Shown here one piece after another: positions 36,686 through 48,795 of a stretch of DNA of 50,031 nucleotides (position 1 is the first letter of the stretch; every line of letters begins with the position of its first letter). The notes under the pieces are model-generated. The model was not told where the DNA came from. It saw only the letters and a list, made by a program, of their open reading frames with translations, and did no database searches. The translations under genes and the position numbers were made by a program. Source of the DNA: Candidatus Rokuibacteriota bacterium (GTDB taxonomy: Bacteria > Methylomirabilota > Methylomirabilia > Rokubacteriales > CSP1-6); the NCBI GenBank assembly GCA_003221515.1, contig QHSI01000135.1, forward strand, positions 1 to 50,031, in the 5' to 3' direction.

Positions 36686-37412
36686 AGCCGCGGACGGCGT
36701 CGCCTGGCTCCGGCTCAACCGGCCGGAGGCTCTCAACGCGCTGAACCGAGAGCTGACCGCCGCGCTCGAGCAAGAGCTCGAGCGCGTCGCGACGATGGAC
36801 GAGGTGCGCGTCCTCGTCGTCGCCGGCCGCGGGCGCGCGTTCTGCGCGGGCAACGACATCAAGGAGATGCAGACGGTCACGGGCGACGAGGCCGCGGCGC
36901 TCGCCCGGCGGCAGGCGGCGCTCATGCACCGGTTCTCCACCCTGCCTCAAGTCACCGTTGCCGCCGTGGATGGTTGGGCCCTCGGGGGCGGGCTCATGCT
37001 GGCGGCCGCCCAGGATCTACGGGTCGCCTCGGACCGCGCAAGGTTCGGGCTCCCGGAGGTCACGCTCGGCTTCAACCCGGGCTACGGCATTGCGCGCCTG
37101 TTCGACGTCGTGGCCGGCGGTCACGCGCGCGACCTGCTCCTCACCGGCCGGACGATCCATGCGACCGAAGCGCTGCGGATGGGGCTGGTCAATCGCGTCG
37201 TCGCGCCACCGACGCTCGAGGCGAGCGTCGCCACGTTCGCGGCGGAGATCGCGCGCTCGCCGCGCGGCGGTCTGGCGGCGACGAAGGAGATCGTGGCGGC
37301 GATTCGCGCCGGGGCGCGCGGCCGCGAGGCCGAGGGCTACGGCGACGCGCTCAGGACGAGCGCCGAGGCGCGCGAGCGGATCCGGGAGTTCGCGAGCCGG
37401 CGAAGACGGTAG
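36633..37412 (+). CDS. Enoyl-CoA hydratase/isomerase family protein
   Basis: A 259-residue crotonase-fold protein. LRLNRPEALNALNRELTAAL, AGRGRAFCAGNDIKEMQ (first oxyanion part, 87-103) and VDGWALGGGLMLAAAQDLRVASDRARFGLPEVTLGFNPGYG (second oxyanion part) are typical. The glutamate of LPEVTLGF matches the second catalytic acid. The first glutamate of true hydratases (usual GGCELA) is replaced by GLM here, so its chemistry may be isomerisation or another crotonase reaction. GTG 36633 gives a 53-base overlap; GTG 36666 is possible. The convergent fusion gene ends four bases away. Confidence 0.88.
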   Translation: MRRQLIQRTVAVPITELEAADGVAWLRLNRPEALNALNRELTAALEQELERVATMDEVRVLVVAGRGRAFCAGNDIKEMQTVTGDEAAALARRQAALMHRFSTLPQVTVAAVDGWALGGGLMLAAAQDLRVASDRARFGLPEVTLGFNPGYGIARLFDVVAGGHARDLLLTGRTIHATEALRMGLVNRVVAPPTLEASVATFAAEIARSPRGGLAATKEIVAAIRAGARGREAEGYGDALRTSAEARERIREFASRRRR

Positions 37413-37416
37413 CTGG

Positions 37417-39660
37417 CTACTGCCGGCGGCGCAGCATGTCCTGGTCGGCCTCGCGCAGCATATCTTCCGCCGTCTCGGGCGGCGCCTGCGCGTAGACGAT
37501 CCCGACGTTGCACCGGATCGGGGTGGGGATCCCGCGCTTGACCGAGAGCGTGGTGATCCGCTCGAGGACGCGGTTGACCACCGTATCGGCGTCACCCCCG
37601 CCGGCGTCCGGGAGGAACACCACGAACTCGTCGCCCCCATGGCGGCCGATCAGGTCGGTGGTCCGCGTGGCCTCGACGAGGGCGTCGGCCACTGTCCGGA
37701 GCACGTCGTCCCCCACGCCGTAGCCGAGGCGGTCGTTGATCGCCCGGAGCTGGACGACGTCGAGGACGAGCAGGAGCGCGCCCGTCTTCCGGCGGCGCGC
37801 GACCGCGGCCAGGCGACGGTATTGATCGTGGAACGCGCGGCGGCCCACCAGGCCCGTGACCGGGTCCGGCGCGTACCGGGACAACCGGCGGTCGGTCTCG
37901 TACAGGCGCCCGGCGAGCGTCCGGAGCAGCGACACCGCCATCTCGGTCGAGTTCTGGAGCACCTTCAGGAACTCGTTCTGGTGGAGCATGAGGCAGTGCG
38001 TGCGCTCGACCGCGACGACCGTGGCCGACCGGGGCTGGTTCCGGAGCACCCCGAGCTCGCCGATGATCTGGCCCTCCCCCAGCTCGCCTACGATCAGCTC
38101 CAGCGACGAGTCGGGCGCGACCTCGAGGACGCGGACGCGGCCGGAAAGGATCACGAAGAGGCGATCGGGCGGCTCGTTCTCGCGGACCAGCACCTGACCG
38201 GGCGCGAAGCTCTGCTCGGCTGCGCTGTCGAGGAGCAGATCGCGCTGCTCGCTGGTGAGGTGGCGGAAGAGCGGGACGGTGGCCAGGAGGTTCGCGCACC
38301 GGCCCCGGTTGTCGGTCGCGCTGCGCACCGGCCCCTGGATGACTGTTGTCGGTTCCGTCGGATCGAAGACCATCAGCGTGCGGGCGAGCCAGGCGCGGAC
38401 GCGGGCGCGCAGCATCGGCGGGCTGAACGGCTTGGCCAGATAGTCGGTCGACGACGCTTCACCCCGATACACCGCGTCGGACGGGATCGTGCTGTCGGCG
38501 AGTACGATGATCGGCAGGTTCCGCCGGCCGAGCCGCTCGCGCAGCGTAACCAGTCCCGCGTCGCCGTCGAGGGCCTCGCGGTCGACGATCGCGATGTCCG
38601 GCAGGAGCTCGGCGCCGCGCGCGAGCGCCGCGTTGACGTCGGACTGGCGCAGGAACTGGAGCCCGTCCTCGCCGAGGATCTCCTCGATCTCGTTCTCGTT
38701 CGCGCTGATCACCAGCACGCGGCCGCCGGCGATCTGCCGGTGCTGCAGCGCGGACGCTTCGGCCACGTCGAGCGTGACGCTGCCGCTGCCCTGCACGTGC
38801 AGCTCGAGCCCTTCCCGGGCCGCGAGCACGTCCAGCGCCTGGCCGCGACTGGCGACCTGGGCGCGCGCCGTGGTCTCCATCTGCTCGAGGATCGCGTCGT
38901 CGTGGGCCGGGTCGTGATGGAACAGCACCAGACGCTCCACCCCCGCGGCCAGGGCCACGTCGACGGCGTACTCGATGCTGCTGTGTCCCCAGCCGACCTT
39001 GTCGAGATACTCCTCGGCCGTGTACTGCGCGTCGTGGATGACGAGGTTCGCGCCCTTCAAGAACGCGATGTGGCGCTCGTCACCCGGATGCTGGGAGACC
39101 CGGCCCGGCGCGCTCCAGAACGGCTCGTGGTCGGTGACGTAGGCGATGCTCGCTCCGTCGCTGGTCATGCGGTAGGCGACGGTCGGCGCGGTGTGGTTCA
39201 GGTACTGCGTCTCGACCAGCACCTCGCCCACGCGAAAGAATCCCTCGTCGAGCTCGTTGAAGTGGATGCGCGAGCGCAAGTCGCGCAGCTTCACCGGGAA
39301 GTACGCGTACTCCATCTGGCCCGCCATCGCCTCCTCGAGCCCGCGCTGGAAGCCCATTGGCGCGTAGATGTTCAGCTCGGATCCGGGCAGGAACGCCGGG
39401 ACGAAGAAGGGGAAGCCCTGGATGTGATCCCAGTGCGTGTGGCCGATGAAGAGGTGGAGGCGCATCGGCTGCGGGACGGTCTGCGCCAGGTGCATGCCGA
39501 GCTCGCGGGCGCCGGTGCCGCAGTCGAGGATGATCACGGTTCCGTCGGAGGCGCGCACCTCCACGCACGAGGTATTGCCCCCGTAGCGCGCGGTGTGCGG
39601 GCCCGGCGCGGCGATCGACCCACGAGTCCCCCAGATGCGAGCGAGCATGGCGACTTGCAT
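37417..39660 (-). CDS. MBL-fold hydrolase / receiver / cNMP-binding / GGDEF fusion
   Basis: A 747-residue soluble protein with four domains. Residues 5-290 form a metallo-beta-lactamase domain with HTHWDH at 74-79, His156, Asp177 and His248/249, close to the RNase Z and class II cyclic-nucleotide phosphodiesterase type. Residues 313-425 form a receiver domain with Asp360 as likely phospho-acceptor and Lys410 (YLAKPF). Residues 455-585 are a CRP-like cNMP domain with phosphate cassette GELGVLRNQPRSATVV at 534-549. Residues 598-745 are a GGDEF domain with intact GGDEF at 675-679 and inhibitory RTTD at 666-669, five residues before it. So it may hydrolyse one nucleotide, sense one and make c-di-GMP. 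ATG 39660 lies two bases after a TATGAT, so ATG 39648 is an alternative start. Divergent from an acyl-CoA dehydrogenase. Confidence 0.92.
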   Translation of the reverse strand: MQVAMLARIWGTRGSIAAPGPHTARYGGNTSCVEVRASDGTVIILDCGTGARELGMHLAQTVPQPMRLHLFIGHTHWDHIQGFPFFVPAFLPGSELNIYAPMGFQRGLEEAMAGQMEYAYFPVKLRDLRSRIHFNELDEGFFRVGEVLVETQYLNHTAPTVAYRMTSDGASIAYVTDHEPFWSAPGRVSQHPGDERHIAFLKGANLVIHDAQYTAEEYLDKVGWGHSSIEYAVDVALAAGVERLVLFHHDPAHDDAILEQMETTARAQVASRGQALDVLAAREGLELHVQGSGSVTLDVAEASALQHRQIAGGRVLVISANENEIEEILGEDGLQFLRQSDVNAALARGAELLPDIAIVDREALDGDAGLVTLRERLGRRNLPIIVLADSTIPSDAVYRGEASSTDYLAKPFSPPMLRARVRAWLARTLMVFDPTEPTTVIQGPVRSATDNRGRCANLLATVPLFRHLTSEQRDLLLDSAAEQSFAPGQVLVRENEPPDRLFVILSGRVRVLEVAPDSSLELIVGELGEGQIIGELGVLRNQPRSATVVAVERTHCLMLHQNEFLKVLQNSTEMAVSLLRTLAGRLYETDRRLSRYAPDPVTGLVGRRAFHDQYRRLAAVARRRKTGALLLVLDVVQLRAINDRLGYGVGDDVLRTVADALVEATRTTDLIGRHGGDEFVVFLPDAGGGDADTVVNRVLERITTLSVKRGIPTPIRCNVGIVYAQAPPETAEDMLREADQDMLRRRQ

Positions 39661-47842: not shown

Positions 47843-48795
47843 ACGCAGGCGTGGTCCAGTCGCGCGCCGCGCAGGCGTTCCATCCCCTGGAGCATGCGCG
47901 GCAGGTCCATCGGCTGGTCGAGCTCGTCCCGGAACTCCTGATAGCAGCGCATGACGTTCGGCAGGATGCGCTCGGCGTCGCTCCACGACGCGTACACCCC
48001 GAGCTTGATGTCGCCGGCCGCCGCCGACGCCGGCATGCCGGCGTCGAATCGCACCTTCGCCTCGCGTTGCACCAGCGCCAGGTAGTCGCGCATGCGCTTG
48101 AGGTCCTGCTTGGTGCCGACGGGCCCGTGGCCCGGCACGATCACGTCCGCGTCGTAGCGCATCAGGCGGTCGGCCGCCTTGATCCAGTTGCCGACGTGGC
48201 CCTGGAACGCGAGCGGCGTCACGTAGTGGAACGCGATGTCGCCCGCGAACAGGATGCGCTCCTTCGGCAGATACGCGACGGAATCGCCGACGGTGTGCGC
48301 GGCGAAGCCCGGATGCCAGAGCTGGATCTCGCGGTCGCCGTCGTGCAGCACCATGCGGCTCTCGAACGTCACCGTTGGCAGGACCACTTTGAGCTTCGGG
48401 AACTCCGCGGCGAATCGCGGCATGAAGCGCCGCAGCATCGACACCGGTGGGAAGCCCGGCGCCAGCGCCTCGCGGCACTTCGCGCTGGCGACGATGGTCG
48501 CGGCGCGGAAGAATCGGTTGCCGCCAGTGTGATCGAGGTGGTGGTGCGTGTTGATGAGCCGGGCGACCGGCTTGCGCGTGGTCTTCTTGATCGCCGCGAC
48601 GAGCCGGCGGGTCATCGACGGCACCATGAGCGCGTCCACCGCCACCGCGGCCTCGGCGCCGACGATCAGCCCCGAGTTTGCCACGCCGGTGTCGCCGCGC
48701 GGATCGATGCCCGACGCCTGGACGTACGCGAAGATCCGGGGGCCGATCTCGATCATGCCGCTCTTCCAGCGCGTGGGAACCACGTGACGTGCCAT
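47839..48795 (-). CDS. MBL-fold metallo-hydrolase
   Basis: A 318-residue metallo-beta-lactamase-fold protein. RLINTHHHLDHTGGNRFF holds the HxHxDH zinc motif; HPGFAAHTVGDSVAYLPKERILFAGD adds His and Asp and VIVPGHGPVGTKQDLKRM adds the last His. This pattern is that of the glyoxalase II/quinoprotein relay-type and lactamase-like hydrolases that often sit in degradation loci. ATG 48795 has GGGAGG five bases upstream, so the longer frame to 48867 is not used. A TATGGT hexamer lies about 28 bases upstream as a possible -10. Substrate unknown. Confidence 0.88.
   Translation of the reverse strand: MARHVVPTRWKSGMIEIGPRIFAYVQASGIDPRGDTGVANSGLIVGAEAAVAVDALMVPSMTRRLVAAIKKTTRKPVARLINTHHHLDHTGGNRFFRAATIVASAKCREALAPGFPPVSMLRRFMPRFAAEFPKLKVVLPTVTFESRMVLHDGDREIQLWHPGFAAHTVGDSVAYLPKERILFAGDIAFHYVTPLAFQGHVGNWIKAADRLMRYDADVIVPGHGPVGTKQDLKRMRDYLALVQREAKVRFDAGMPASAAAGDIKLGVYASWSDAERILPNVMRCYQEFRDELDQPMDLPRMLQGMERLRGARLDHACV

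Follow-up and report, generated by a model that had tools for sequence, protein, structure and literature searches.

A four-domain protein of Candidatus Rokubacteria that may couple cyclic-nucleotide sensing to cyclic di-GMP synthesis

Can a single polypeptide sense one nucleotide second messenger, destroy it, and make another? The question is raised by a gene of a soil bacterium, carried on the 50,031-nucleotide stretch of Candidatus Rokuibacteriota DNA analysed here, which we call the window (assembly GCA_003221515.1, contig QHSI01000135.1). An earlier note on this DNA had placed at 37417-39660 one protein with a possible phosphodiesterase, a receiver, a cyclic-nucleotide sensor and a diguanylate cyclase, and had proposed that it might degrade cAMP or a similar nucleotide, sense it, integrate a phospho-signal and make c-di-GMP. 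The interval was correctly drawn. It is filled by a single intact open reading frame of 747 codons plus stop, a monocistronic gene on the minus strand (ATG at 39660, stop at 37417), as are all features of the protein given below. Most relatives begin four residues later than Met1, so that Met5 is probably the true start. A 903-residue frame overlying the gene on the plus strand was rejected as a GC-rich shadow.

On one side a gene for an acyl-CoA dehydrogenase (39712) is read divergently, with 51 bp in between; on the other, a gene for an enoyl-CoA hydratase converges on it and ends at 37412. Conservation of the neighbours, which encode the enoyl-CoA hydratase, a creatininase and an acyltransferase, does not extend beyond Rokubacteria, and beside the Nitrospirota copies of the gene none of these was found. 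The neighbourhood therefore gives no clue to function, and operon logic was set aside on the same ground; none of the gene neighbours ties the gene to a cyclase.

The domain content was established by Pfam search. Three families scored above their cut-offs: PF12706 (Lactamase_B_2) at residues 43-249 (about 58-60.5 bits, cut-off 27), PF00027 (cNMP_binding) at residues 483-570 (80 bits, cut-off 27.5) and PF00990 (GGDEF) at residues 599-744 (100 bits, cut-off 23.8). PF00072 (Response_reg), at residues 323-422, stayed below threshold with 22 bits against 30.2. The domain search suggested with the earlier note thus bore out the MBL-fold, cyclic-nucleotide-binding (CNB) and GGDEF domains and left the receiver short of its cut-off. 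An orthologue from a Nitrospirota MAG (L042) passes the PF00072 cut-off with 36.3 bits, and the assignment of residues 313-430 to a receiver stands for this reason. An AlphaFold2 model built from the aligned sequences of 37 relatives shows four folded units (mean pLDDT 85), whose relative placement is uncertain (pTM 0.61). No helix-turn-helix or membrane domain was found in the Pfam search, in agreement with the earlier reading of a protein with no DNA-binding or membrane part.

The case for sensing begins with the CRP/PKA-like CNB domain (residues 453-571; 37948..38304), the nearest PDB sequences to which are PKG, PKA-R and CRP/GlxR. A CRP-like phosphate-binding cassette had been noticed at this place and was confirmed at residues 534-548 (GELGVLRNQPRSATV; 38017..38061), where E535 is present in 37/37 orthologues, R544 in 36/37 and Ser or Thr at position 545 in 35/37. 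The helix that follows, the C-helix (residues 572-598; 37867..37947), carries the base-capping pair R585-L586 in all 37. The ribose, phosphate and base-capping contacts of cAMP have been described for CRP and for Bd1971 of Bdellovibrio, in which they involve E58, R67, S68 and R108 (PMC6717892). Every cAMP contact that was checked is kept here, E535, R544, S545 and R585 being equivalent to E72, R82, S83 and R123 of CRP. The domain therefore combines a PF00027 score above the cut-off with the cassette Glu and Arg-Ser and the capping residue of the C-helix. CNB families can bind other cyclic mononucleotides, or none. A PADLOC match of the domain to Pycsar CNB-TIR effectors makes cUMP or cCMP a possible ligand; a role in defence was rejected, since these matches reflect generic CNB similarity.

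A single helix (residues 572-596) connects the two domains in the model. It leaves the CNB domain and leads without a break to DP-TGL, where the GGDEF domain starts, and would be the expected route for allosteric control of the cyclase.

The GGDEF domain itself (residues 599-747; 37420..37866) has the signature motif and the residues of a diguanylate cyclase. The metal ligand D634 and the guanine contacts N642 and D651 are present in 37/37 orthologues, and D677, E678 and F679 in 36/37, with one row gapped. The RTTD I-site described earlier is genuine (R666 in 37/37, D669 in 36/37) and together with the GGDEF signature occupies residues 666-679 (37624..37665). At the selectivity position, Hypr GGDEF enzymes, which form cGAMP, have Ser or Thr instead of Asp (PMC6456294). 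D651 is kept throughout, so that c-di-GMP is the product to be expected, and cGAMP output was rejected. The domain ends at profile position 153 of 161, about eight residues early, and it does so across the whole family: Lys or Arg is found at position 746 in 31 of the 33 rows with a letter, and the SGRN-type segment that would follow is absent throughout. In PleD the missing part holds a phosphate-contacting Arg, which leaves the catalytic strength of the domain uncertain; the shortening could lower or even abolish activity.

Residues, structure and precedent all give good support to the earlier proposal that cyclic-nucleotide sensing is linked to c-di-GMP, and we consider the link from sensor to cyclase likely, at slightly better than an even chance. 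We infer ligand, direction of control, feedback and hydrolase substrate as follows. A cyclic nucleotide, most likely cAMP, would bind the CNB domain; the C-helix of the CNB dimer would then move and, being continuous with the GGDEF domain, would determine how the GGDEF dimer is arranged and thereby how fast c-di-GMP is made. The product would feed back at the I-site. The MBL domain, a putative two-metal phosphodiesterase, would probably hydrolyse the same or a related cyclic nucleotide, by which the protein would limit its own input signal, and the receiver would be what is left of a phospho-regulated ancestor, with a role in structure or in protein docking. The complete reading, a soluble, one-component, cyclic-nucleotide-gated diguanylate cyclase with a built-in and probably cyclic-nucleotide-degrading MBL domain, is offered tentatively, at somewhat less than an even chance.

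There are precedents for CNB control of c-di-GMP enzymes and for cAMP control of GGDEF domains. In Bd1971 a CNB domain with the Glu, Arg, Ser and capping Arg-Leu contacts seen here directly controls a c-di-GMP enzyme (PMC6717892), but the enzyme is an EAL phosphodiesterase rather than a GGDEF cyclase, so that the sign is opposite; in addition, its CNB domain is N-terminal, and there is no MBL domain or receiver. Lcd1 of Leptospira is a cAMP-dependent diguanylate cyclase in which cAMP controls the GGDEF domain of the same chain (PMC8846402); it senses cAMP through a GAF rather than a CNB domain, and no MBL domain or receiver has been reported in it. If our reading is true, then, as far as the literature search shows, no diguanylate cyclase gated by a CRP-type domain has been described before, nor one that carries its own cyclic-nucleotide-degrading domain, and direct conversion of a cAMP signal to a c-di-GMP signal could be tested in one purified protein.

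What the MBL domain (residues 1-292; 38785..39660; pLDDT 87) might degrade is less easily decided. On its residues it is phosphodiesterase-like, with a two-metal site: H74, H76, D78, H79, H156, D177 and H248/H249, and a GWGH motif, are invariant in 37 orthologues, and the intact site described earlier is confirmed. The HTHWDH motif lies at residues 74-79 (39424..39441). Across all related architectures the metal ligands are kept with one exception, H248S. Class II phosphodiesterases comprise typical enzymes with PF02112 and atypical ones with PF12706, such as Rv1339, YhfI and CpdA (PMC9293780), and YhfI prefers cAMP and cGMP (PMC9117128). The query domain has the marks of the atypical class, with a PF12706 score of 60.5 against 27 bits and the HxHxDH, His, Asp and His ligands, although PF12706 is broad and also takes in RNase Z-like proteins. 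A cyclic-nucleotide substrate is reasonable because the domain carries PF12706. The same family, fold and HxHxDH two-metal site are found in Rv1339, YhfI and C. glutamicum CpdA (PMC9293780, PMC9117128). These, however, are stand-alone enzymes, and with 36.4 bits the query lies far below the 400-bit cut-off of NF041851, the equivalog for cyclic-mononucleotide phosphodiesterases.

An alternative keeps the CNB domain as the gate of the cyclase and gives the MBL domain another substrate: RNA 3' ends, a 2',3'-cyclic phosphate or another phosphodiester. In that case c-di-GMP output would be coupled to an unrelated hydrolytic activity. By sequence the domain matches RNase Z best (E 1e-9 with the single sequence, 1.6e-18 with a profile), and HEAT-like (HDAQ, residues 209-212) and HST-like (GHSS; the GWGHS motif is at residues 223-227) motifs are common to both. 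Among structures, Foldseek ranked BA1088 (1zkp), RNase Z (1y44), YhfI (6kns) and a PhnP-family diphosphatase at the top, with yeast PDE1 and Apyc1 lower, and stand-alone MBL-receiver proteins exist without any cyclic-nucleotide domain. Against these points, the match to the RNase Z equivalog TIGR02651 reached 84.6 bits against a cut-off of 292.95 and was broken in two, while NF041851 matched in one piece. Between the two aligned pieces there are 31 profile positions compared with 66 chain residues in 2cbn, about 35 residues fewer. The shortened stretch is where the tRNA-binding exosite arm of RNase Z lies, and the insertion that bears it is absent. The fusion to a nucleotide sensor also fits a cyclic mononucleotide better. 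We give this alternative appreciable weight, though we think it rather less than probable.

At E<=1, there was no match to PF02112 or to PF23023 (Apyc1), the latter despite Apyc1 being a fold neighbour, and the PhnP equivalog TIGR03307 gave 20.4 bits against 272.25. Membership in the typical class II phosphodiesterases, Apyc1, PhnP and tRNase Z was rejected on the family cut-offs. Degradation of cAMP by this domain, as first proposed, is accordingly plausible: YhfI, PDE1 and Apyc1 are among its neighbours, but so are RNase Z and PhnP, and no curated equivalog cut-off was reached. A firm grouping with a non-nucleotide branch, named at the time as the result that would count against the proposal, did not emerge; the branch is phosphodiesterase-like, and tRNase-type and cyclic-mononucleotide-type enzymes are inseparable by sequence within it. 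In our estimate a cyclic-nucleotide substrate has at best an about even chance. Elsewhere the genome encodes one more MBL protein of this general type (HPHWDHVMGFPFF), which is shorter and in which no fused domains were seen (L132:1240-2148, plus strand; G000:C91), and another MBL-superfamily match (PF12706, 29.9 bits) lies in the window at 48145-48588 on the minus strand.

The direction of control could also be reversed, with the MBL domain as output and the GGDEF domain as a weak or dead sensor, binding of a cyclic nucleotide or GTP downstream tuning the hydrolase. Tuning of an MBL hydrolase in this way is known from GbpA and GbpB of Dictyostelium, class IIb phosphodiesterases activated by cyclic-nucleotide binding, in which an MBL catalytic domain is likewise followed by CNB domains (PMC11988041). 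The comparison, made by description, also shows differences, in that these eukaryotic proteins have two CNB domains instead of one and neither receiver nor GGDEF domain. Among the four folded domains, conservation and selection are both strongest in the MBL domain, the C-terminus of the GGDEF domain is shortened throughout the family, and MBL-REC-CNB relatives without GGDEF exist. On the other hand, the catalytic residues and I-site of the GGDEF domain are invariant, and degenerate sensor GGDEFs usually lose them. We therefore regard this reversed arrangement as unlikely.

The preferred reading, in which the CNB domain gates the cyclase, fits a cell in which cAMP and c-di-GMP are both likely in use, as judged from the class III cyclase (13), GGDEF (7, in 6 frames), PilZ (7) and HD-GYP (5) matches in the source genome. 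There are also five CNB matches; no EAL match was found in the genome or in the four-domain protein. The idea that the MBL domain substitutes for a missing c-di-GMP phosphodiesterase was rejected, since five HD-GYP domains are present. Outside the window the genome encodes a 731-residue fusion of CHASE2, class III nucleotidyl cyclase and PilZ domains (L117:1132-3327, plus strand; G000:C29:111631-113826) with an RxxxR...DxSxxG motif, a candidate for a c-di-GMP-regulated cAMP cyclase, that is, for the reverse direction. With a limit of E<=1e-150, relatives of this protein occur in 43 of the order's 59 genomes, some of the matches lacking PilZ coverage. Its co-occurrence with the four-domain gene is not evidence of a joint function, because shared ancestry explains it. 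An extended form of our reading would have the CNB domain sense cAMP and switch on c-di-GMP synthesis, the MBL domain of the same chain then destroy cAMP to give a self-limiting c-di-GMP pulse, and the CHASE2-cyclase-PilZ protein supply the reverse arrow of a two-way loop. We consider this extension doubtful. In the same region (L117:5095-7359, minus strand; G000:C29) is a frame that reads as a trypsin-like protease joined to a rhodanese-like part, with a CNB domain at its C-terminus, a further unusual combination with a cyclic-nucleotide-binding domain.

The phospho-signal of the original proposal has not fared as well. Residues 313-430 (38371..38724) are modelled as the alternating strands and helices of a receiver, and the Asp360 and Lys410 seen earlier are indeed present, being kept in 33/37 and 28/37 relatives. 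The Mg2+-binding acidic pair, however, is replaced by Ser319-Ala320 (38701..38706), and the Ser/Thr position is Ala388. Of the DD, D, T and K of a phosphorylatable receiver, the DD and T are thus gone. No orthologue among the 37 has the acidic pair, and a single acidic residue is found there in only two. A receiver lacking any one of five active-site residues is a pseudo-receiver by the published definition (PMC12632262), and on its residues this domain is one. Integration of a phospho-signal is contradicted by the absence of the metal-binding pair from all relatives of the four-domain type.

For a true response regulator, still controlled by phosphorylation or acetyl phosphate, speak the retention of D360 and K410 and the stand-alone forms of ancestral type (L060, L080 and L087) that are encoded beside hybrid kinases with Hpt domains. 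With at most one acidic residue at the pair, and that in two orthologues, and with Ala at position 388, phosphorylation is very unlikely. PleD also contains a pseudo-receiver and ends in a GGDEF domain with an I-site (PMC12632262); unlike the present protein, it is driven by a second, phosphorylated receiver and has no CNB or MBL domain.

As had been suggested as a check, the same domain order was sought in related genomes, and it recurs. Of 60 genomes searched in the order (Candidatus Rokubacteria), about 33 encode an MBL-REC-CNB-GGDEF protein. The gene is complete or nearly so in 28 copies; the rest are truncated or have disrupted frames, and several of these lie where a contig ends. Two copies with frame changes (L048:6001-8269 and L126, G010:C65) are assembly errors or pseudogenes. 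At E<=1e-150 the protein was missing from all 35 genomes that belong to other orders of the phylum. MAGs with the labels Nitrospirota, Acidobacteriota and Chloroflexi contain relatives with all four domains and 51-60% identity. By a simple Nei-Gojobori count dN/dS is well below 1 in every domain, with the lowest values in the MBL domain (0.10-0.18) and the C-helix (0.03-0.13), which indicates purifying selection on all of them. Since the four domains recur together and each of them is under selection, the fusion is not a chance one. Its parts are known from GbpA/GbpB, Bd1971 and Lcd1; the four-domain combination is new, real and conserved. A literature search confined to papers available without subscription returned no paper with all four domain terms together, which is weak evidence of novelty, and a review of c-di-GMP sensory systems makes no mention of a lactamase-type domain.

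The history of the family bears on the question of what pseudo-receivers are for. In an unrooted tree of the MBL domains of 81 proteins, obtained by a quick search without bootstrap, the MBL-REC-CNB-GGDEF proteins form one side of a branch (SH-aLRT 98, starred) and join the MBL-REC-CNB proteins (SH-aLRT 97, starred). MBL-REC-GAF proteins form another group (SH-aLRT 87, not starred), and the stand-alone MBL-REC proteins are split between two positions, each close to one of the fused groups. The acidic pair is present in 20/23 stand-alone MBL-REC proteins, in 0/36 of those fused to GAF and in 0/18 of those with CNB-GGDEF. The simplest reading of this pattern is that the ancestor was a phospho-regulated response regulator with an MBL domain, and that its phosphorylation site was lost on two occasions, each time when a ligand-binding domain was gained; the family would then be a clean evolutionary case of such loss in both lineages. 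The three stand-alone genes that adjoin hybrid histidine kinases have canonical receivers, and their MBL domains are candidates for phospho-controlled output domains. Proteins with an MBL domain, a degenerate receiver and a GAF domain are widespread in Pseudomonadota, Verrucomicrobiota, Cyanobacteriota and Actinomycetota (L054, L057, L084, L100, L102 and others), and the same invariant MBL site is found in them.
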